Shown here: positions 28,853-48,139 of the stretch, in pieces
Position numbering within the stretch: position 1 is the stretch's first letter
How the letters are laid out: every line of letters starts with the position of its first letter
Source of the DNA: Catalimonadaceae bacterium JC749
GTDB taxonomy: Bacteria; Bacteroidota; Bacteroidia; Cytophagales; Cyclobacteriaceae
Length of the DNA stretch: 64,000 bases
Direction of reading: 5' to 3'
Assembly: GCA_021730635.1 (NCBI GenBank)
Contig: JAJNNC010000001.1
Location: 1,054,001-1,118,000, forward strand
Notes under the pieces: generated by a model
The model's input: the letters and a program-made list of their open reading frames with translations, nothing else
Databases searched by the model: none
Told to the model about the DNA's origin: nothing
Made by a program: the position numbers and the translations under genes

Positions 28853-30289
28853 TCAAACAGTCATGGCGGCTGGTAAAGTAATTTTCCAGATCATCCCGGT
28901 ATACTCGATCACATACACCACATTATCTATCATCAGGGCATCCGTAGGACCTGTAAAACCGTCGACAATTCGATAGCAATGGACGATGTAATTGTCAATG
29001 TCTGGCTTATATTGTAATTTCATGTGGATCAGGTCTGCTCCTAATACCGAAAGCCGTCGCATGAGAGAAGAATTTTCGCCGAAGGTATTGCTCAACACAA
29101 AACCATCTCCTTTGTAGGGGTCGGCCAGCAGGCTGTCTGTATCAAAGAATAAGCCCAGGGGAGAACGATGCCCTGTAAAAGTGCCAACCGGTTCTCCCGT
29201 CTCATCCCCATCTTTCACTTCTCCTGTTTGCCGGTCACGGTAAAAGTTGGCATCAGGTCCATAATTGAGAACCGGAGCTGTGATCGTCAGCTCTGCCGGC
29301 CTTTTGGGAAATGTCGGGTCATTCTTAAAATACTTGTTATTATAAGCATAGGCGGCCGGATTGATGAAAGGATCTTTTGCCGGATCAGGGTCCCAGTCAG
29401 GAAACTGCTGAGGGTTTTCTGTATTTCCCATCACCCAGGGGAACCCATAATGGTGCCCTTCTCTGAGCCAGAACATATCTTCCGAATGGTCATAATCGGA
29501 AGAATTGGATACAGCAAACAAGTGCCCTTCCGGAGAAAAAGCCAGATCATATGCATTCCGGACGCCATTTGCAAACAGATATCTCTTTTCAGCCAGAAAA
29601 CTGGAATCATCTTTCAGCACTATATCTTTCCCGTCTACAGGAAGCTTGAAGATACAGGCCGTGATGGCCACTTCCCTGGTGTCCGGAAACATTCCGTCAT
29701 TATCCTGCACTTCCCCATGGTCTGTGCGGGCACCGCTATTCACATAAATATATTGTCCGTCGGGGCTTACTGCAATGCCATTAAACTCATGGCTATACAG
29801 TGTTTTGGGTTTTCCATACAGGTCGGTGATGGCCAGCGTATCCCAGGCATATTGACCTTTCTGATCCAAGCGACCCCGCATGACAATGCCCTTGGTGGCT
29901 TTGTTGTCGTCATAAAATTTATTGCCCACCAAAAAAAGCATGCTATCATAGAAGGCCATGCCTTGTAAGGATTCTATGCCATGATCCGATAAATCATAGG
30001 CTTTTTCAGCAAACAGCGAGTCTTGCTGCCGGTATATTCTGAAAATATCTCCTGCCATGTTGTTATAGAAGAAATCGTTGGTGACAGGATCCAGGCATAA
30101 GCGAATCCCTCCTCGCTCTATCGCCATGAAAGGTTCTATTTTTATATCGGCGCTCAGGGCACGGGGCGTTCGCTCTTCTGTCGATGGAGAAAGGTAAGAA
30201 GACTGTTGGTTGCCCCGTTCACAAGCTGTATACAATGCCAGCAGCGACAAGCACAAAAAAGAAAGAATGAAGCGCATGAGGATAGGCAT
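28853..30289 (-). CDS. sorbosone/glucose dehydrogenase-like lipoprotein
   Basis: Exported beta-propeller protein of about 478 residues, with an N-terminal hydrophobic segment ending in a lipobox-like LYTAC. The propeller resembles PQQ-dependent sugar (sorbosone) dehydrogenases: FNGIAVSPDGQYIYVNSGAR, VRNAYDLAFSPEGHLFAVSNSSD, EGHHYGFPWVMGNTENP, GFTGPTDALMIDNVVYVIEY. The known relatives oxidise sugars or alcohols in the periplasm; whether this one binds PQQ I cannot tell. ATG at 30289 lies one base after the amidohydrolase stop at 30291, so the two are translationally coupled as the last genes of the operon. A further ATG at 30277 is a possible start. Confidence 0.8.
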   Translation of the reverse strand: MPILMRFILSFLCLSLLALYTACERGNQQSSYLSPSTEERTPRALSADIKIEPFMAIERGGIRLCLDPVTNDFFYNNMAGDIFRIYRQQDSLFAEKAYDLSDHGIESLQGMAFYDSMLFLVGNKFYDDNKATKGIVMRGRLDQKGQYAWDTLAITDLYGKPKTLYSHEFNGIAVSPDGQYIYVNSGARTDHGEVQDNDGMFPDTREVAITACIFKLPVDGKDIVLKDDSSFLAEKRYLFANGVRNAYDLAFSPEGHLFAVSNSSDYDHSEDMFWLREGHHYGFPWVMGNTENPQQFPDWDPDPAKDPFINPAAYAYNNKYFKNDPTFPKRPAELTITAPVLNYGPDANFYRDRQTGEVKDGDETGEPVGTFTGHRSPLGLFFDTDSLLADPYKGDGFVLSNTFGENSSLMRRLSVLGADLIHMKLQYKPDIDNYIVHCYRIVDGFTGPTDALMIDNVVYVIEYTGMIWKITLPAAMTV

Positions 30290-30290
30290 C

Positions 30291-31556
30291 TTAATGTCCT
30301 GTTGAACTGCTGGAGGCTTCCGACTGCCAGGGGGTCCCTGCCAGACCATTCAGGTCATATACCACCTGACCGGCTCTGAGGGTAAGTTCGCACTCCAGCT
30401 TTTGGGTGCCATCCATGCGATACCCCTGAGAATCTATAAAGCCAAACTGCCCTTCCCGAAGGTTTAATACGGCTACATCAGCCTCTGCCCCTACACTCAG
30501 ATGGCCCAGCTCTTCCCGGTGTATCACCTGAGCAGGCTTCCAGGTGGTAGCTGCTATAACGCTGGGTAAATCCATTTGCATATTCAGAAATTTGGACATC
30601 AGGTTGAGTATATCTTTCATCCCTCCATTCATACTACCGGTATGAATATCCGTACTGATGGTATTAGGATAAAACCCGCTCTTCAGGGCTGGTACGGCCT
30701 GCTTGAAAAGAAAACTGGCACCGCCATGCCCTACATCAAAAATAACACCCTTCGTCTGGGCTTCTTTGACATAGGGACGGACTTTTCCCTTTTCATCCAC
30801 CACAGGCACCCGGCCATTTACATGAGCAAACACATGGGTAAAAATATCACCGGGGCGGAGACGCTGGAGCAGTAGTTCTTCCAGAGAAAGCGGGGGTGTA
30901 TGTCCACCAAAATCAATCATCACAGGAATATTGGCTATTTCTCCGGCCTCTACAGCCCGATCTACCGGGTCCCATTCGGGTCCGGAAAAATGAGCCACCT
31001 TAATGCCGACCACCTCCGGATTTTGCTGAGCGACCAGGGCCGTCATTCTGGCATCCATATCGTCCAGGTTCTGCTCGTAAACGCCACCCCGCATCCCTTC
31101 CCCTACAATATTGAGGAAGGAAAGCACCCGGGTTTTAGAAGGGTCAATGATATTTTCTTTAAAAAGGGGAAAGCTACGCCATCCGGCCCCCCCTGCATCC
31201 ACCACCGTGGTGACGCCACACCGGAAGGTAAAACCGTCGGGTGCCAGAGCACTGGGGCCATTACTCAGATAGTGATCCGCTTCGGTTCCCTGAAAATTAT
31301 GGGAATGCAGATCGATAAGACCAGGCGTTACATATAATCCCTGGACGTTGATCACTTTTTCTGCGCTTTCTTCGCTGATATTTTCAGCCACCTGTACAAT
31401 TGTATCACCACTGATAGCCACATCCATGATGCCATCTATATTATTCTTTGGGTCTATCACATGGCCTCCCTTAAGAAGCAGACTGTAAGATTGGGCCCAG
31501 GCATGGCTACAGTAAAAACAACTTAGACAACAGAGAACATAAATTAGGTTTCGCAT
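30291..31556 (-). CDS. amidohydrolase/deacetylase family metallohydrolase, exported
   Basis: TIM-barrel amidohydrolase with a signal peptide (MRNLIYVLCCLSCFYCSHAWAQ), so it acts outside the cytoplasm. Metal ligands seen are the HxH of GLIDLHSHN, a Lys at VVGIKVAHFSG, His in FTHVFAHVNG, His in IFDVGHGG and Asp in TISTDIHTGS. It resembles the EF_0837-type deacetylases that occur with SelA-like PLP enzymes; here exactly such an enzyme is 94 bases upstream. Probable role: removing an acyl group from an amino compound. An in-frame TTG at 31577 is upstream, but ATG 31556 gives a clean signal peptide. Length 421 residues. Confidence 0.87.
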   Translation of the reverse strand: MRNLIYVLCCLSCFYCSHAWAQSYSLLLKGGHVIDPKNNIDGIMDVAISGDTIVQVAENISEESAEKVINVQGLYVTPGLIDLHSHNFQGTEADHYLSNGPSALAPDGFTFRCGVTTVVDAGGAGWRSFPLFKENIIDPSKTRVLSFLNIVGEGMRGGVYEQNLDDMDARMTALVAQQNPEVVGIKVAHFSGPEWDPVDRAVEAGEIANIPVMIDFGGHTPPLSLEELLLQRLRPGDIFTHVFAHVNGRVPVVDEKGKVRPYVKEAQTKGVIFDVGHGGASFLFKQAVPALKSGFYPNTISTDIHTGSMNGGMKDILNLMSKFLNMQMDLPSVIAATTWKPAQVIHREELGHLSVGAEADVAVLNLREGQFGFIDSQGYRMDGTQKLECELTLRAGQVVYDLNGLAGTPWQSEASSSSTGH

Positions 31557-31650
31557 AGAACAGAATACACTTTGCAAGTTTTAAAAATAAGGAAATGGGG
31601 CAGCTTTTGGCTATCCCTTTCATAAAAGAAGACATAAGCCCGACGAATGA

Positions 31651-32871
31651 TCAGGATACTGCCACTTCAGACAAGGCTTCCTGCAAACGGGTAGCAACAA
31701 TTCTTTCCTGCCCGGGCCTCAGCATCCAGGTTGTGATACTGATAGAATCCGGTCCTCCGCCGGCTACTTCAATAGAAGGGTGCCCTTTGCGCAACACCTC
31801 TTTGAGCTCATCACCGGAAATACGCACTTTACCAGTATCCCAGGAGACATTCAGCGTTGGCACATGATTCGCTACGGGAGGCACATCTGTTTTTGCTGTT
31901 ACCCCTTTGATCGATTTAATGGCATCGCCTATGTGGGCAATCTGTCCTTCCCAGCGCTTCCACTCTTCTTCATGATTCTTAGCCAGATAAGTTTCAAGCG
32001 CGATGAGCATGCCTAGCACTTCTTCTTTGTTCACCTTCATGCCTCTTCCCACCGTATCGCCCCGGGGTGGCGCGCTTAAACGGGCTGCTGCAATCAGGTC
32101 TTTTTTCCCCAGCAGCAGGCCAGCACTTTGCGGACCTCTCAACCCTTTCCCACCGGAGAAGCAGACTAGGCCAAAACCCATTTCGGTGTATTTCCACAAA
32201 TTCTCAACAGGAGGCACATCCGCCGCACAGTCATTCAAAGTCGGAATATTATGTTTTTTCGCTATCTTGACAAATTCTTCTGTCTGTATCTTACCATCAA
32301 AATTATAGGCATTGATGAAGACCATCATAGCGGTTTTGTCGTTGATAGCTTCTTCTAACTCTTTCCGGGTCTCTACATAAACAATATCCACCCCACAGTT
32401 GCGGATGGCATGCGCATATCCGATGTCATGTGCTTTTTGCATAATGACCTCGGTTTTCATGCCTGTCCCTTGCAGATGAGGAATTTGGGCTGCTTTTTTC
32501 TCATCCAGCCCCGTAAGTACCCCGGCAGTAGCCAGCGTCATTGCTGAAAAAGCACCGGAGGTCACAGTGGCTGCTTCGCAACGCAGCAAGGAAGCGATCC
32601 TTTCTCCTACTTTATCCTGCAGTTCATCCAGCATTACATATTCGTTGGAAGCATACTGATAGGCATCCTTCACTTCATCGAGGAGCAATGAGCCGGTCAT
32701 GGCAGTATAGGTACCCGCCGCATTGATGAAAGTCCGCACCCCCAGTTCCTTGAAATAATCACGATACTGAGGAACTACGGTGGTTGGCATTCTGGAAAAT
32801 CCCTGCCCCATAAACCCTCCTATGAGCGGGAGAGACGATAAATGTTTGATAAGTTGTCTGCGATTAAGCAT
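31651..32871 (-). CDS. SelA-like PLP-dependent enzyme, probably Tat-exported
   Basis: Fold-type I pyridoxal-phosphate enzyme of the SelA-related family that includes D-glucosaminate-6-phosphate ammonia-lyase. The core shows FINAAGTYTAMTGSLLLDEV, the cofactor stretch VTSGAFSAMTLATAG, Asp in PTLNDCAADVPP and the Schiff-base Lys in CFSGGKGLRGPQSAG. The N-terminus MLNRRQLIKHLSSLPLIGG looks like a twin-arginine signal, which is unusual for this family; Tat export would allow the folded, cofactor-loaded enzyme to reach the periplasm. It lies between RidA (36 bases) and the deacetylase. Function inferred: ammonia elimination from an amino compound. Not a selenocysteine synthase: no selenium genes are near. 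406 residues. Confidence 0.85.
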   Translation of the reverse strand: MLNRRQLIKHLSSLPLIGGFMGQGFSRMPTTVVPQYRDYFKELGVRTFINAAGTYTAMTGSLLLDEVKDAYQYASNEYVMLDELQDKVGERIASLLRCEAATVTSGAFSAMTLATAGVLTGLDEKKAAQIPHLQGTGMKTEVIMQKAHDIGYAHAIRNCGVDIVYVETRKELEEAINDKTAMMVFINAYNFDGKIQTEEFVKIAKKHNIPTLNDCAADVPPVENLWKYTEMGFGLVCFSGGKGLRGPQSAGLLLGKKDLIAAARLSAPPRGDTVGRGMKVNKEEVLGMLIALETYLAKNHEEEWKRWEGQIAHIGDAIKSIKGVTAKTDVPPVANHVPTLNVSWDTGKVRISGDELKEVLRKGHPSIEVAGGGPDSISITTWMLRPGQERIVATRLQEALSEVAVS

Positions 32872-32907
32872 AAGGTTATAGCTTAAGATCTCATAAAAGA
32901 CCAGAAA

Positions 32908-33375
32908 TTATACGGCTGCAATACAGTCTATTTCTACCAAAGAATCTCCAGGTACTCCTCCGAAAACAGCCACTGTCGTACGGACAGGCGGCTTGTTGCC
33001 AAAGCGACCCCGGTAAGTTTCATTCATAGCCTTATAATCATTCAGGTCGTGGAGGTATACATTCACTTTTACTACCTTATCCATAGAAGAACCGGCGTTC
33101 TTCAGTTGTTTCTCCATTTCATTCAGCACATGCTCGGTGTGTGCTTTGATATCCCCTTCAAAGTGTGCCCCTATGCCGGCGATAAAAACAAAGCCTCCCT
33201 GTTTCACAGCACTGGAGAATAAGGGAACTTCCTGGTCGGGTACCACATCAAATACTTCTTTTTCTGTCGCTTCGTCAGCGTTTTTTGCACTAGCCTGTGC
33301 TCCTACACTAAGCCCGGCTACACCTGCCAGAGAAGCAAACATTTTTTTCAGAATAGATCTTCGTTGTGTTTTCAT
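32908..33375 (-). CDS. RidA family protein, probably Tat-exported
   Basis: RidA proteins hydrolyse reactive enamine/imine products of PLP enzymes to keto acids and ammonia. This 155-residue copy has a long N-terminal signal with a twin-arginine motif (QRRSILKKMFASLAG, cleavage likely after QASA). The RidA core follows: AVKQGGFVFIAGIGAH, TEHVLNEMEKQLKNAGSSMDKVVKVNVYLHDL, and the end RTTVAVFGGVPGDSLVEIDCIAAV. Arg in PPVRTTV is the usual catalytic Arg. It is the first gene of the operon and precedes the PLP enzyme whose product it probably processes. Export of RidA is uncommon. Confidence 0.9.
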   Translation of the reverse strand: MKTQRRSILKKMFASLAGVAGLSVGAQASAKNADEATEKEVFDVVPDQEVPLFSSAVKQGGFVFIAGIGAHFEGDIKAHTEHVLNEMEKQLKNAGSSMDKVVKVNVYLHDLNDYKAMNETYRGRFGNKPPVRTTVAVFGGVPGDSLVEIDCIAAV

Positions 33376-34738: not shown

Positions 34739-36349
34739 ATGAAAACATTACGCAAATTACTGAATGGCAGCCTCCTATCGCTCATGATTCTTTGTTTGAT
34801 AAGTTGTAATGAAGATGATGAGACGCCAGACGCTTCAGGAGAAGTAAGATTAGCTACTGATGCTTCACTGGGTGAAATTCTGGTAGATGGCAATGGCACT
34901 ACCCTTTATTATTTTACCAGAGATGTCAGCGGAGAAAGTGCTTGCTCCGGTGGTTGTTTGAGTGCCTGGCCTGTGTATTATTCGGAGAACCTAACTACAG
35001 GAACGGGATTGAACACCGCTGACTTCGGCACAATTACCCGCAGCGAGGGCGGTATGCAAACCACTTACAAAGGTTGGCCCTTGTATTACTACTCTCCTAC
35101 TTCAGACGGAAATATAGAAGCCCCTGGTGAAACCAACGGGCAGGGTGTTAACAATGTCTGGTATGTGGTAAAGCCTACCTACTCCCTAATGATTGCCGAT
35201 GCCCAGTTGGTGGGGGAGGACGGATTGAATTACAAGAGTGACTATACGGAAGGAGAAGAAGTGACCAAATTTTTTACAGACGCCATGGGGCGTACCCTCT
35301 ATAGTTTTATCAGAGACTATAAAGATGTGAATAATTTTACCCGTTCTGATTTCAGTAACGATGCTGTATGGCCGATATTCCACGTGGAAATTGAAGATCT
35401 GCCGGGTAATGTAAATGCAGACGATTTTGGAGAAATTACCGTTTTCGACCGTCAGCAACTGACCTATAAGGGATGGCCGCTCTATTATTTTGGGCAAGAT
35501 GAAGAACGAGGACAAACCAAAGGCGTTAGTTTTCCGGCACCTGGTGTGTGGCCTATTGTTAATACTAATGTGACAGAAGCACCCCTGGCGCCTACCGTTC
35601 AAACTGCGAACAATGAAACGTTGGGCAGTATTCTCACCGATACCCAAGGTCGTACACTTTATTACTTTACCCGTGATCATGACGGAACCAATCATTGTTC
35701 GGGTGGTTGTGCCGGTGCCTGGCCGGTCTTTTTCACGGAGGAAATCAGACTACCCACAGGAAGCACCTTAAACGCGGATGATTTCAGCAGTATTACTCTT
35801 TCTGACGGAACCACTGAACAAACCACTTACAAAGGATGGCCGCTCTATTATTTTGCACCCAATGGAGATGGCGAGATCGAAGCACCTGGTGAAACTGCCG
35901 GAGAAGGGGCAAACAATGTATGGTATGTGGCCAAACCGGGTTATTCTCTGATGATTGCCGATGCTCAACTGGTAGGGCATGACGGAAAAAATTACAAAAG
36001 CGATTACACAGAGGGAGAAGAGGTTACTAAATATTTTACAGATGCCAACGGTCGTACGCTTTACATCTTCATCAATGATAGCAAGGATACCAACAATTTT
36101 ACCAATGGTGACCCTGGTCACGATGCGGTCTGGCCTATCTTTTATGTAGCGCTGACAGAACTTCCCAGCGCCATGAATCCGGAAGACTTTGGAGAAATCA
36201 CCGTACTGGGAGAACCACAACTTACTTACAGAGGATGGCCCCTCTATTACTTTGGGCAAGATGAAGCACGGGGAGAAAACAAAGGCATCAGCTTCCCGGC
36301 ACCTGGTGTGTGGCCCATTGCCAATTTTGATACGCCGGCGGCACAATAA
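34739..36349 (+). CDS. lipoprotein with duplicated Yx(FWY)xxD repeats (PF03640/COG4315 type)
   Basis: Surface or periplasmic lipoprotein of 536 residues (lipobox LISC, Cys23). The mature protein is built of two large units, about 33-275 and 285-530, that are strongly similar along their whole length. Each contains two short COG4315-type motifs: one with a CSGGC cysteine pair (TLYYFTRD...CSGGC...AWPV) and one without cysteines (FTDAMGRTLYSFIRD). Each unit ends in QLTYKGWPLYYFGQDE or its near-copy and SFPAPGVWPI. Proteins of the family are small; this fourfold form is large. Function unknown; relatives have been linked to redox or metal stress, which I cannot confirm here. It is monocistronic. 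Confidence 0.88.
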   Translation: MKTLRKLLNGSLLSLMILCLISCNEDDETPDASGEVRLATDASLGEILVDGNGTTLYYFTRDVSGESACSGGCLSAWPVYYSENLTTGTGLNTADFGTITRSEGGMQTTYKGWPLYYYSPTSDGNIEAPGETNGQGVNNVWYVVKPTYSLMIADAQLVGEDGLNYKSDYTEGEEVTKFFTDAMGRTLYSFIRDYKDVNNFTRSDFSNDAVWPIFHVEIEDLPGNVNADDFGEITVFDRQQLTYKGWPLYYFGQDEERGQTKGVSFPAPGVWPIVNTNVTEAPLAPTVQTANNETLGSILTDTQGRTLYYFTRDHDGTNHCSGGCAGAWPVFFTEEIRLPTGSTLNADDFSSITLSDGTTEQTTYKGWPLYYFAPNGDGEIEAPGETAGEGANNVWYVAKPGYSLMIADAQLVGHDGKNYKSDYTEGEEVTKYFTDANGRTLYIFINDSKDTNNFTNGDPGHDAVWPIFYVALTELPSAMNPEDFGEITVLGEPQLTYRGWPLYYFGQDEARGENKGISFPAPGVWPIANFDTPAAQ

Positions 36350-44740: not shown

Positions 44741-47700
44741 TTAATGTTGTACTATGAATTTCTTCAGTACTACCCCATACGGATCTTTGATCATCAAAGT
44801 ATACCATCCATTTTTCAGGTGAGCTACGTGGAGTCGCATGCCCCCCTTCTCTTCAACTAAAGAAAAAGGAATACTCTTTCCAGAAATATCTACTATCTGC
44901 CATATTGTACCTTCTGTCATCTGGTAACCTTTTACATAGATGTCATGATCGGTTGGATTAGGGTAGATCTCCACTGATATAGTGGCGAATGTAGAGGAGG
45001 AAGTACTAGTTTTAACTTCAGCCATTTGCGCATTTTCACTTTCAACAGATACTTTCAGGTGATCCATATTAGGGCCACTTGAACCTACTGCAATAGCCGT
45101 TACCGTATTCATACCTGCATTCAACGTAACTAAGGTGCTAACAGTATTCCAGTTAGTCCAGCTTCCGGTAGATGGAAATGAAAGACTGGATATGGCAATT
45201 ACATTATTGATCTGAATTTGTAAAGGCCTGTTGCTGCTCCCTAAGGCATATCGGAAGGTTAAAGTGTATGAGCCCTGGATAGGCACCTCTACAGTCCATC
45301 TTACATAATCGTTGTTCTTATGAAGATAATCAACAAAACCGCTTCCCGTGAAGGCACTGTGATTACTGGCTATTTGTCCACCTACTATCTCAGCAGCTTC
45401 TGCTTCTAACATAACCGGGTCAAAGGGTGAATTTTCCTGAATGACGCTTACCTGACCAAAGGTAGCTGTGTTCAAGGCACCATCCTGATGAGCTGTGACG
45501 GCCAAGCCTACATATACCAGGCTGTTCAGTGCAACACTAATGACTCCTACCTGTTGCCAGTTGCTACCATCTGTGGATTTATATCCCGTTAGGGTATTTC
45601 CACTACGGGAAAGTTTAAGCCATACAGGCACTGATCCTGAAGTGCCGGTATGACTACTATTACTGCCAACACCGGTTCTCCGCTGGAAAGCTACGCCTTG
45701 TGAAGGTGTTATAAAAATAGAGGCATGGCGTGCATTTGCAGCCAACGTTTCCCGTATCATCAATCCCGCCTTAGCCCAGCTATTGGTATTGGTAATATTG
45801 GTCACACGACCTACAATTTCTCCGTCTCCTTCTAAAGTCTGGTATACATAGTGAAACTCATCCGACGTACTCCATATATCGGCTCCTGAACCTACTACCG
45901 TAAAAGTGCCATTGCTAAAAGTAGCACTGCCGGGAGCAGCTACACTACCCACATCGGAATGGTTCCAAGGAGTTGGTACTGTACCGCCTGTTTCATTAAA
46001 TACAGCTGTATAGGTTACATTCTGTATGGGAGTCACAATAGTTTGCGTAGCATTTCCTCCTTGTACCCAATGATCAAATTCATAGTTTTTACCATTGGCT
46101 GTTTGCGGGGATACTACCCCGACGGTGCGGATAATGCCTTCCACTCCCTGTATGGAAGCAGGTGTAGACAGTGGCTGTCCGTCCAGCGTCACCTTAAGTC
46201 CAGCGGGGACAGTCGTAAAGCTCAACATAGACTTCCTGGGATAAATGTCACGATAAGTGGTAGCACTCAGACCATCTGCATCCACCACCGTCAGATATAG
46301 GCGGTACCACACATTGGCTGATGTTTCTCCCGTATTCGGAATAACAAACGATCCGGACTTGGTTCCCGAAGCCACCGGTGGCCCATCGTGGGAATGCGTA
46401 TCATGGTGAAAGACAACTTCCCAGGTAAAGGCGCTGGCGGGCAATGCCCCATCTTCCTCATCAGTAGCACTCCCAGAAAACGAAATAGTTTCTCCGGCCC
46501 TGTATAGAGCATCCTCAGTAGGCGTCATAATTTTCGGTACGGGTGCTGCATTAAATTCTGTCACTGTGAGCGTAGCGGCATTGCTGGTCGCACTGCCAGC
46601 ACTGTTGCTTACTATAACCCGATAGGCACCAGCATTTGCAGGCGTTGCACTATTAATAGTGAAAGTAGCGGTTGTAGCGCCTGCGATATTAGCATTGTTC
46701 TTTTGCCATTGATAACTCAAAGGGCTGGCTCCTGAAGCACTCACACTAAAAGAAGCTGGTTGCCCTTCGGCAACTGTCAGGCTAGCAGGTTGATTGGTGA
46801 TCATAGGAGCTTCTACACTGGTATAAATAATTTTGTATAGCGCCTGATTACTTCTGCTCAAATAATATAAGTTGCCATCACTGCCTACTTCCAGGCTTAC
46901 CACTCTGCCCCCTATATTGGTCGCAAAAGGCAGCTTGCTGATGCCACCTGACAAGTCCAGCATATTGATCCAATCATTACAGTAATCTACAAAAAAATAT
47001 CTTCCCCGAAAGGCAGCCGGGTAACTGGTAGTAGAAGGATTGAAGAAAACACCTCCTGTGATCGCACATCCTGTTCCGTCCTCGGAACCATGAGCATAAG
47101 CATATACCGGATTAACAAAACTGCTGTTGCTGCTGTTACCTTCCGCAGAAGGCCAGCCAAAATTACGGCCTCCCCTGGTGGCATTGTTAATTTCCTCCCA
47201 GGTACTTTGCCCTACATCATTGACAAAAATTTTGCCTGTTCCTGGCTGAATATCAAACGTATAAGGATTGCGAAGGCCATAAGCCCATACACTTCGCTTC
47301 TGTTTTGAGCCACTGGTAAAGGGATTGCCGGCAGGTATACTACCATTGGCATTAATCCTCAACAGTTTGCCATGATAAGTGTTGAGATCCTGCGACTTAT
47401 TGGGGCTGGCATTTTCACCTATGGCTACATAAAGCTTACCGTCTGGACCAAAGTGCATTGCCCCTCCATTATGATTGTTAGCGCTACTCAAAGGATCTAA
47501 GTTCAAAACTACTACTTCACTGCCGGGAACTACTACATCTCCATTAGCAGTGAACCTGGAAATTCTGTTCCGGCTACCATCCGGTAAGGTATAATACAGA
47601 TAAATATGCTGATTGGTAGTAAAATCTGGGTCCAGCGCAATGCCAATAAGTCCTCTTTCTCCTGTAGCATTCACATTCAGACTTATAAAAGGTTTGCTTA

Positions 47701-47944
47701 GTAAATTTCCATTTTTGATCACGCGTAGGTTCCCTGCCTGTTCGGCTACAAAGATGCGACCATCTGGTGCAAAAGCCATTACAGTAGGCTTAATGATACC
47801 CTTGGCTACCTGAACTCTGCTAAACCCATTGGGGAAATTTTGCGCACTGCTTTCCAGTCCTGTTAGTAGCATCAGCAGTATGCATGCCCATGCATAAGGA
47901 TAAAGGGATGTCGTTTTTCCAGAATAAACATAGAAGTGCCTCAT
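44741..47944 (-). CDS. T9SS-exported glucose/sorbosone dehydrogenase with Ig, CBM6 and sorting domains
   Basis: Large secreted enzyme, about 1067 residues from ATG 47944. Order: signal peptide (ending LESSAQ), a PQQ-type sugar-dehydrogenase propeller (about 40-380, PTVMAFAPDGRIFVAEQAG, NNHNGGAMHFGPDGKLYVAIGEN, VWAYGLRNPYTFDIQPGTGKIF), an Ig-like domain (about 385-460, PASLTVAEGQPASFSVSA), a PKD-like segment, a repeat with EFDHWVQGGNATQTI, a concanavalin-like domain (AGLMIRETLAANARHASIF), a CBM6 (MLEAEAAEIVGGQIA, DYVRWTVEVPIQGSYTL), and a T9SS type A C-terminal domain (VEIYPNPTDHDIYVKG). It should be released or anchored at the cell surface and oxidise sugars bound by the CBM. An in-frame upstream ATG at 48046 adds a non-signal sequence. 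Confidence 0.92.
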   Translation of the reverse strand: MRHFYVYSGKTTSLYPYAWACILLMLLTGLESSAQNFPNGFSRVQVAKGIIKPTVMAFAPDGRIFVAEQAGNLRVIKNGNLLSKPFISLNVNATGERGLIGIALDPDFTTNQHIYLYYTLPDGSRNRISRFTANGDVVVPGSEVVVLNLDPLSSANNHNGGAMHFGPDGKLYVAIGENASPNKSQDLNTYHGKLLRINANGSIPAGNPFTSGSKQKRSVWAYGLRNPYTFDIQPGTGKIFVNDVGQSTWEEINNATRGGRNFGWPSAEGNSSNSSFVNPVYAYAHGSEDGTGCAITGGVFFNPSTTSYPAAFRGRYFFVDYCNDWINMLDLSGGISKLPFATNIGGRVVSLEVGSDGNLYYLSRSNQALYKIIYTSVEAPMITNQPASLTVAEGQPASFSVSASGASPLSYQWQKNNANIAGATTATFTINSATPANAGAYRVIVSNSAGSATSNAATLTVTEFNAAPVPKIMTPTEDALYRAGETISFSGSATDEEDGALPASAFTWEVVFHHDTHSHDGPPVASGTKSGSFVIPNTGETSANVWYRLYLTVVDADGLSATTYRDIYPRKSMLSFTTVPAGLKVTLDGQPLSTPASIQGVEGIIRTVGVVSPQTANGKNYEFDHWVQGGNATQTIVTPIQNVTYTAVFNETGGTVPTPWNHSDVGSVAAPGSATFSNGTFTVVGSGADIWSTSDEFHYVYQTLEGDGEIVGRVTNITNTNSWAKAGLMIRETLAANARHASIFITPSQGVAFQRRTGVGSNSSHTGTSGSVPVWLKLSRSGNTLTGYKSTDGSNWQQVGVISVALNSLVYVGLAVTAHQDGALNTATFGQVSVIQENSPFDPVMLEAEAAEIVGGQIASNHSAFTGSGFVDYLHKNNDYVRWTVEVPIQGSYTLTFRYALGSSNRPLQIQINNVIAISSLSFPSTGSWTNWNTVSTLVTLNAGMNTVTAIAVGSSGPNMDHLKVSVESENAQMAEVKTSTSSSTFATISVEIYPNPTDHDIYVKGYQMTEGTIWQIVDISGKSIPFSLVEEKGGMRLHVAHLKNGWYTLMIKDPYGVVLKKFIVQH

Positions 47945-48139
47945 TAGATTGGTAGTTAGGTGAAAAAAATGTGTAAAGAAGCATTTCAGCCAAAAATATG
48001 ATGCACTTAATTTACAATACTGCTTTCTGGAAAAGAACAGGAACAATATAAATATTCAGAAGTATCATACTCCTAACTGATCGTTACTGATCGTTTATAT
48101 CCATAAGAGTTCACCTGCTCTCTTCTGTTAACTGTCTTT

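Follow-up and report, generated by a model that had tools for sequence, protein, structure and literature searches.

We analysed a 64,000-nucleotide stretch of the genome of Catalimonadaceae bacterium JC749 (GenBank assembly GCA_021730635.1, contig JAJNNC010000001.1, positions 1,054,001 to 1,118,000), hereafter the window, in which four closely spaced minus-strand genes encode a RidA-family protein, a SelA-like pyridoxal 5'-phosphate (PLP) enzyme, an amidohydrolase/deacetylase and a lipoprotein resembling glucose/sorbosone dehydrogenases (GSDH). RidA has been studied for its protective role in the cytoplasm, where PLP enzymes leak enamines, and RidA proteins and most PLP enzymes are cytoplasmic. 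Judged from their sequences, the RidA and the PLP enzyme of this operon are very probably exported by the twin-arginine translocation (Tat) system, and the operon is probably the envelope-located part of a pathway that breaks down unphosphorylated N-acetylated amino-sugar acids such as N-acetyl-glucosaminate or N-acetyl-galactosaminate. An earlier note on this DNA had described the four genes as separated by 36, 94 and 1 base in the order given above, with two Tat-like leaders, a Sec (general secretory) leader and a lipobox; the coordinates and gaps were as claimed, and all four leaders were found.

The RidA leader (MKTQRRSILKKMFASLAGVAGLSVGAQASA, with the motif QRRSILKK) and the PLP-enzyme leader (MLNRRQLIKHLSSLPLIGGFMGQGFS, with NRRQLIKH) match the Tat pattern, the amidohydrolase starts with MRNLIYVLCCLSCFYCSHAWAQ, and the lipoprotein leader runs to LALYTAC. 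Tat leaders were scored with a simple home-made rule and not with SignalP, the rule being an RR followed by hydrophobic residues and an uncharged stretch of at least 13 residues. Shuffled leaders passed at rates of 0.1% (RidA) and 0.36% (PLP enzyme), and the genome encodes TatC. Relatives came from 30 SelA-like loci in named genomes, from plasmid records, and from the window's family, in which 45 of 148 genomes gave a SelA-like match. Loci were recruited for their similarity to the PLP enzyme of the window (controls for similarity to the related enzyme DGL), and all co-occurrence counts are conditional on it. Among 81 loci examined, 80 had a SelA homologue of at least 330 amino acids, and the 96 homologues were reduced to 79 by removing rows at least 95% identical (L001-L005, L036-L065, L069, L075-L078, L081-L084 and L125-L144 stand outside the 79-row counts). 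The main clade comprises 53 non-redundant members that share at least 52% identity with the PLP enzyme of the window. Named genome records supplied 18 of them and genomes of the window's family 34; the window is the remaining one. The Tat rule was passed by 52 of these 53 PLP enzymes, the lone failure nonetheless starting with MTSRRNLIKSLS, by 13 of 13 relatives at 40-52% identity and by 6 of 13 below 40%. Over all loci, 47 RidAs were of the type found in the window (its own included) and 45 of them passed, as did 22 of 632 other genes of the same loci. Two RidA orthologues from another family of the phylum (L129 and L131) carry RK in place of RR and were called Sec by the rule. These results agree with the Tat prediction that the earlier note had proposed as a check.

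Among the PLP enzymes, mean identity over the 25 residues after the RR is 38%, versus 62% in the mature domain, a pattern expected if a leader is conserved for its properties and not for its letters. We consider it very improbable that the leaders are unused, with the RidA and the PLP enzyme remaining in the cytoplasm and the amidohydrolase and the lipoprotein alone exported. Such an arrangement would suit the usual location of RidA and most PLP enzymes, and the window's PLP enzyme lacks a clear AxA site, but it is at odds with an RR and hydrophobic stretch that persist in nearly the whole clade despite this divergence. It is also at odds with the other exported proteins nearby, namely a second RidA type (PF14588/PF01042) near 14 of the 53, with a Sec or lipoprotein leader in 11 (the leaderless three are from Daejeonella), and RraA within 12 kb in 15 of the 53, all 15 with a Sec signal by rule.

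The linkage of the genes is conserved. Neighbouring genes were named by blastp against chosen representatives, and short contigs were scored as misses. Within 12 kb of the PLP-enzyme gene, a RidA-family gene of either type was found in 48 of 53 loci and one of the window's type in 41, with a Tat leader in 40 of those 41. The amidohydrolase was found within the same distance in 49 of 53, with a signal by rule in 48, and a Tat-type PLP enzyme, an exported RidA-family protein and an exported amidohydrolase occurred together in 41 of 53. The clade includes members from Chitinophaga, Sinomicrobium, Zunongwangia, Daejeonella, Cyclobacteriaceae and Saprospiraceae. In Acidobacteriota (Terriglobus, Acidicapsa and Granulicella) the order is RraA-SelA-RidA-SelA2, with Tat leaders on SelA, RidA and SelA2. 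The gene-order comparison suggested by the earlier note thus upheld the linkage across Bacteroidota and, rearranged, in Acidobacteriota; the exact order RidA-SelA-amidohydrolase-GSDH was seen in 4 of 53 loci (the window, L085, L088 and L093).

Other roles have been described for RidA proteins, and the exported RidA could chiefly be an envelope protectant, either a chaperone or a scavenger of enamines from elsewhere, instead of a pathway step. Diverse RidA functions are mentioned in the available text of PMC9537276, but the neighbourhood and the active site make this role extremely improbable here. In 37 of 53 loci the PLP-enzyme gene has a RidA-family gene on its own strand no more than 400 bp away (260-amino-acid length limit); in 27 of these the nearest one is the Tat-type RidA, on the upstream side, and in the rest it is the second type, which lies upstream in 7 loci and downstream in 3. 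All 45 Tat-bearing RidAs of the window's type, its own included, have the equivalents of Escherichia coli RidA G31, N88, R105 and E120; we take Arg105 and Glu120 to be the catalytic residues. In the amidohydrolase, the metal-site residues H91, H93, K193, H248 and D310 (longest-ORF numbering; ORF, open reading frame) are invariant in 58 of 58 sequences. A leaderless RidA paralogue in the same genome (L084, 6552-7031) lies near D-threonine-aldolase-like, dipeptidase-like and permease genes named by sight, in what looks like a separate D-amino-acid locus.

Profile searches bore out the family identities proposed earlier for the first three genes (Table 1). The RidA scored 80 bits against PF01042 (cut-off 27.3), which places it in the Rid superfamily, and 71.3 of the 106.25 bits required by TIGR00004 (Rid family detoxifying hydrolase). 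The PLP enzyme scored 38.5 bits against PF03841 (cut-off 22.8), as a member of the SelA-like/DgaE-like fold-type I superfamily, and 183 bits against NCBIfam TIGR01437, under its cut-off of 385.3. The amidohydrolase reached 50.5 bits against PF07969 (cut-off 29.7) and 457.6 against NF006689, 'amidohydrolase/deacetylase' (cut-off 371). The lipoprotein scored 28.6 of the 434.55 bits required by TIGR03606, and its top Foldseek match was the soluble pyrroloquinoline quinone (PQQ) glucose dehydrogenase 1qbi. Coordinates of the amidohydrolase are taken from an ATG (the longest ORF begins at 31577), and those of the lipoprotein from an inner ATG (30349).

Table 1. Features of the operon in window coordinates
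Feature	Position	Strand	Basis
RidA-family protein (PF01042) with Tat-type leader, 155 aa	32908..33375	minus	profile match
Predicted Tat-type signal peptide of RidA (QRRSILKK, uncharged stretch, AQA/ASA)	33286..33375, end approximate	minus	sequence, rule and shuffles
Fold-type I PLP enzyme resembling SelA/DgaE (406 aa), a putative ammonia-lyase whose substrate would be an unphosphorylated 2-amino-3-hydroxy acid	31651..32871	minus	profile, alignment, model
Predicted Tat-type signal peptide of the PLP enzyme (NRRQLIKH...), no clear AxA	32791..32871, end approximate	minus	sequence; rule
Amidohydrolase/deacetylase (NF006689), Sec leader (SHAWAQ)	30291..31556	minus	NCBIfam profile
GSDH-like beta-propeller lipoprotein, lipobox YTAC	28853..30289	minus	PF07995 near cut-off; model

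The active site of the PLP enzyme suggests what the exported RidA may do. The PLP lysine is kept in 79 of 79 homologues (K213 in the chain numbering of 7lc0, Lys-217 in the text of the paper). The model of the window's enzyme (pLDDT 86) matched Cap15 (PDB 8t7j; VIA-align Z 39.5, 2.5 Å over 349 residues) and DGL (7lc0; Z 37.9, 27% identity over 352 model residues), with the next match at 25.6; by sequence score, DGL reached 119 bits versus 88.9 for Cap15. These matches, which we take to indicate the fold-type I class, separate the enzyme from the fold-type III deaminase OngC. Identity with DGL itself was rejected, as the profile scores and the active-site residues fail. DGL has His162/His163 and phosphate-site arginines, which the exported clade lacks: the DGL loop SHH reads AYN in the window's enzyme, none of the 66 members at least 40% identical has the HH pair, and in the same members the position of R301 holds an arginine in 0 of 66 and that of R332 in 1 of 66. 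The HH pair and both arginines are kept in the DgaE proteins of Klebsiella and Clostridioides difficile and in the Rhizobium and Sagittula proteins, while two haloarchaeal relatives also lack the HH pair, one of them with a Rid gene nearby.

The DGL mutant H163A has a similar kcat and releases into solution a species taken to be the enamine, and RidA is named as an enzyme type that degrades such enamines (Phillips et al., available text of PMC9529869). From the loss of the HH pair and the phosphate arginines, together with the behaviour of H163A DGL, the exported lyase is predicted to act on an unphosphorylated substrate and to pass its enamine to RidA; on the residues compared, we lean by a little towards such a hand-over. 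We rejected a strict rule by which relatives without the histidine pair have a RidA neighbour and those with it do not, because the HH-bearing relatives from Rhizobium (two records) and Sagittula adjoin a RidA-type gene; 'no histidine, hence RidA' is not a clean rule.

Since the nearest solved fold is that of an O2-dependent PLP monooxygenase, lyase chemistry is not certain. The exported SelA-like protein might be a Cap15-like monooxygenase or oxidase whose imine product is hydrolysed by RidA, and Cap15, the top structural match of our model, was itself annotated through its similarity to SelA (PMC6384614, in the sections available). However, the difference in Z is only 1.6, the sequence score favours DGL, and the gene context fits ammonia-lyase operons and not antibiotic biosynthesis, the setting in which Cap15 performs its O2-dependent oxidation-decarboxylation (PMC6384614). 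We regard this alternative as improbable and retain a putative ammonia-lyase.

The neighbourhoods of the relatives point to sugar acids. Around them we found genes for SMP-30/gluconolactonases, RraA-like aldolases, GSDH fused to cytochrome c and BASS-type (PF01758) carriers. GSDH, GSDH-cytochrome or lactonase genes lay within 12 kb in 35 of 53 loci, SusC in 17 and BASS carriers in 13. The Daejeonella neighbourhood has a sodium:solute symporter with DUF485, presumably of the ActP type, an L-lactate permease and a GSDH, and the Granulicella cluster reads TonB-RraA-SelA-RidA-SelA2-amidohydrolase-lactonase-BBE oxidase. In Haladaptatus, a PIG-L deacetylase, a glucose 1-dehydrogenase and a Rid protein are encoded near the SelA-like gene. 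The lactonases, RraA and the sugar-oxidising enzymes, and the presence of this deacetylase family in cytoplasmic DgaE operons, support the N-acylated amino-sugar acid that the earlier note had put forward as one of two options, and we favour this class of compound as the likely substrate.

With the same exported machinery, the substrate could instead be an N-acyl (D-)amino acid or another 2-amino-3-hydroxy acid (of the serine, threonine or hydroxyaspartate type) from peptidoglycan or proteins, which would yield pyruvate or 2-oxobutyrate via 2-aminoacrylate-type enamines. This fits the description of 2-aminoacrylate as the classical RidA target in the portions of the literature available, the weak matches of the amidohydrolase to D-aminoacylases as well, and the acceptance of D-Ser and D-Thr by OngC (PMC9537276). 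ABC transporters, not sugar-type enzymes, lie near the Rhizobium and Sagittula relatives, and one SelA2 locus (L139) adjoins 5-oxoprolinase-like genes by sight. On the other hand, the partners that recur are of the sugar type (lactonase, RraA, GSDH, CBM9, sulfatase-like proteins named by sight, and MR/MLE enzymes), and the same deacetylase family sits in DgaE operons; we consider an amino-acid substrate unlikely.

For an amino-sugar acid, the following route can be proposed. SusCD/TonB receptors, encoded near some relatives, would bring the sugar or oligosaccharide across the outer membrane. A propeller dehydrogenase (GSDH, cytochrome-c-fused in relatives) would oxidise C1, and SMP-30/Pgl-type lactonases would open the lactone. 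The Sec-exported amidohydrolase, to judge from its family and its kept metal-site residues, would then take off acetate, after which the Tat-exported SelA/DgaE-like PLP enzyme would eliminate the 3-hydroxyl and ammonia. The Tat-exported RidA, whose active-site residues are in place, would convert the resulting enamine into a 2-keto-3-deoxy acid. An exported RraA-type aldolase, encoded near some relatives and at other loci in this genome, may cleave the keto-deoxy acid, and BASS, ActP or LldP type carriers may take in the small acids. That the whole of this sequence, from C1 oxidation through RraA aldol cleavage, takes place in the periplasm as a non-phosphorylating Entner-Doudoroff-like breakdown of N-acetyl-hexosamines is a tentative proposal, which we hold somewhat less probable than its opposite. 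Under that complete periplasmic route RidA would hydrolyse a regularly released enamine and hence be an exported pathway enzyme, and imports might, with the same tentativeness, be limited to acetate, ammonia, pyruvate and glyceraldehyde-type products.

Elsewhere in the genome, on contig 12 (L079, 725000-744900), we observed SusCD, two Sec-exported RraA-like aldolases, a BASS carrier, an exported GlcNAc (N-acetylglucosamine)-2-epimerase-like protein and four Tat-tagged MR/MLE (enolase-superfamily) enzymes, two confirmed by Pfam and two by similarity. This locus looks like a sister envelope-located pathway, possibly for plain (non-amino) sugar acids.

The operon is best read as an envelope version of chemistry known or predicted from three other systems. 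The first comprises the DGL/DgaE operons of Salmonella, Klebsiella and Clostridioides, whose PLP enzyme is related to that of the window. The Klebsiella operon is amidohydrolase-DgaE-KDGP aldolase-lactonase and that of C. difficile PTS-MupG-amidohydrolase-DgaE-KDGP aldolase-kinase (KDGP, 2-keto-3-deoxygluconate 6-phosphate; PTS, phosphotransferase system), both with the same amidohydrolase family. They differ from the exported operon in being leaderless, in having no RidA annotated in these two operons, and in using a phosphorylated substrate delivered by the PTS (PMC9529869, available text). The second is the oxidative chitin pathway (Ong) of Pseudoalteromonas, in which the deacetylase OngB and the PLP deaminase OngC convert N-acetylglucosaminate into 2-keto-3-deoxygluconate (KDG) in vitro, and growth on N-acetylglucosaminate requires the RidA gene ongD, its role there being unknown to the authors (PMC9537276, in the text available). 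That pathway runs in the cytoplasm after uptake of the SSS type; OngC belongs to fold type III, OngB is related to D-aminoacylases, and a KDG kinase follows (PMC9537276). The third is the GlcNAc route predicted for the haloarchaeon Natrarchaeobius, which begins with a deacetylase; the chitinase clusters there contain genes for a DGL homologue, a glucose dehydrogenase and a RutC-family protein (PMC12343721). It is a prediction and, in the text available, is not described as exported; its authors add an unknown kinase and view the RutC protein as a repressor (PMC12343721). Two haloarchaeal SelA-like proteins in our set (L068 and L072) lack the DGL histidine pair and phosphate arginines, and as a result the kinase step proposed in that paper, as far as its available text goes, may be unnecessary.

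Regarding novelty, no published exported RidA and no link between Tat and RidA was found among the matches listed, in a literature that lacked most subscription papers, and none of the titles among the matches listed for periplasmic Entner-Doudoroff, Tat and Bacteroidetes concerned this system. Pseudomonas PvdN binds PLP. This aminotransferase-type enzyme crosses the inner membrane through the Tat system, and differs from the present case in serving pyoverdine biosynthesis, with no RidA and no catabolic operon in the available text of PMC6085387. Periplasmic PLP enzymes are thus already known, and what may be new in moving such a pathway across the membrane, as the earlier note had suggested, is the RidA, of which no exported example was found among the matches listed.

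Several observations weigh against the pathway as we propose it. The Tat assignments, predictive as they are, come from our home-made rule. RraA lies near only 15 of the 53 members, and RraA and lactonases are absent beside the window's operon; orthologous RidA is uncommon in Bacteroidota, where a threshold of E 1e-25 gave it in 7 of 296 genomes, that of the window among them. The GSDH-like lipoprotein scored 24.0 bits against PF07995, just under the cut-off of 25, and its model is weak (pLDDT 55); PqqC was not found in the genome in a search that had no positive control. In the amidohydrolase clade, Asp222 stands opposite a histidine in the 2ogj alignment, the 8je0 alignment being shifted there. 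Some histidine is still present in the DGL-HH loop in 11 of 66 exported members, the HH-bearing relatives in Rhizobium and Sagittula have a RidA-type neighbour (a different, leaderless protein), and the Granulicella BBE oxidase has no leader by rule.

If the proposal is correct, the linkage of an exported RidA to an exported PLP lyase that has no proton-donor histidine would imply that pathways can release enamines as a regular step and can do so away from the main cellular pool of PLP enzymes. Also suggested would be a function for the Tat-tagged 'selenocysteine synthase-like' proteins and the exported RraA of Bacteroidota and Acidobacteriota, and a form of sugar-acid catabolism that bypasses sugar uptake at the inner membrane.

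A maximum-likelihood tree of mature domains was built from 45 rows (18 of the 53, 13 at 40-52% identity, 13 below 40%, and DGL). The 37 Tat rows split from the 8 others with support 99/95, or 100/98 with two haloarchaeal rows left aside, and six HH rows formed a separate group (100/98). The Tat trait required one change on the tree versus a shuffled mean of 5.7, so that the exported PLP enzymes form a single lineage among the rows in the tree. The eight non-Tat rows are plasmid records and DGL, and wider sampling could therefore change the split; two relatives from the window's family that stand outside the tree (L135 and L136) are about 30% identical and have no Tat leader. The genome also encodes a second Tat-type SelA-like paralogue, 45-47% identical, on contig 17 (L080, 3967-5196), with no RidA or amidohydrolase match in the 14 kb covered there. 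A longer Tat-type SelA2 clade (about 530-550 aa) occurs in Bacteroidota (L137-L144), where two amidohydrolases adjoin in 7 of 8 loci; in L139 a permease gene and genes like 5-oxoprolinase subunits, named by sight, adjoin as well.

The 8.0-Mb genome (86 contigs) has four PF01042 matches and four RraA-like proteins. No promoter-like motif was found upstream of the RidA gene, and no mobile or phage genes were recognised by eye among window ORFs of at least 150 amino acids, no library search having been made. The operon is flanked by RtcB-like and DUF72 genes which, as queries, gave matches only in the window's own genome and look unrelated to the operon. Elsewhere in the window, positions 34739-36349 encode a lipoprotein that by eye consists of LYYFTRD...KGWPLYYF-type repeats, and positions 44741-48046 a 1101-aa protein in which a sugar-dehydrogenase-like propeller, PKD/CBM-like parts and a C-terminal sorting-type tail were recognised by eye.

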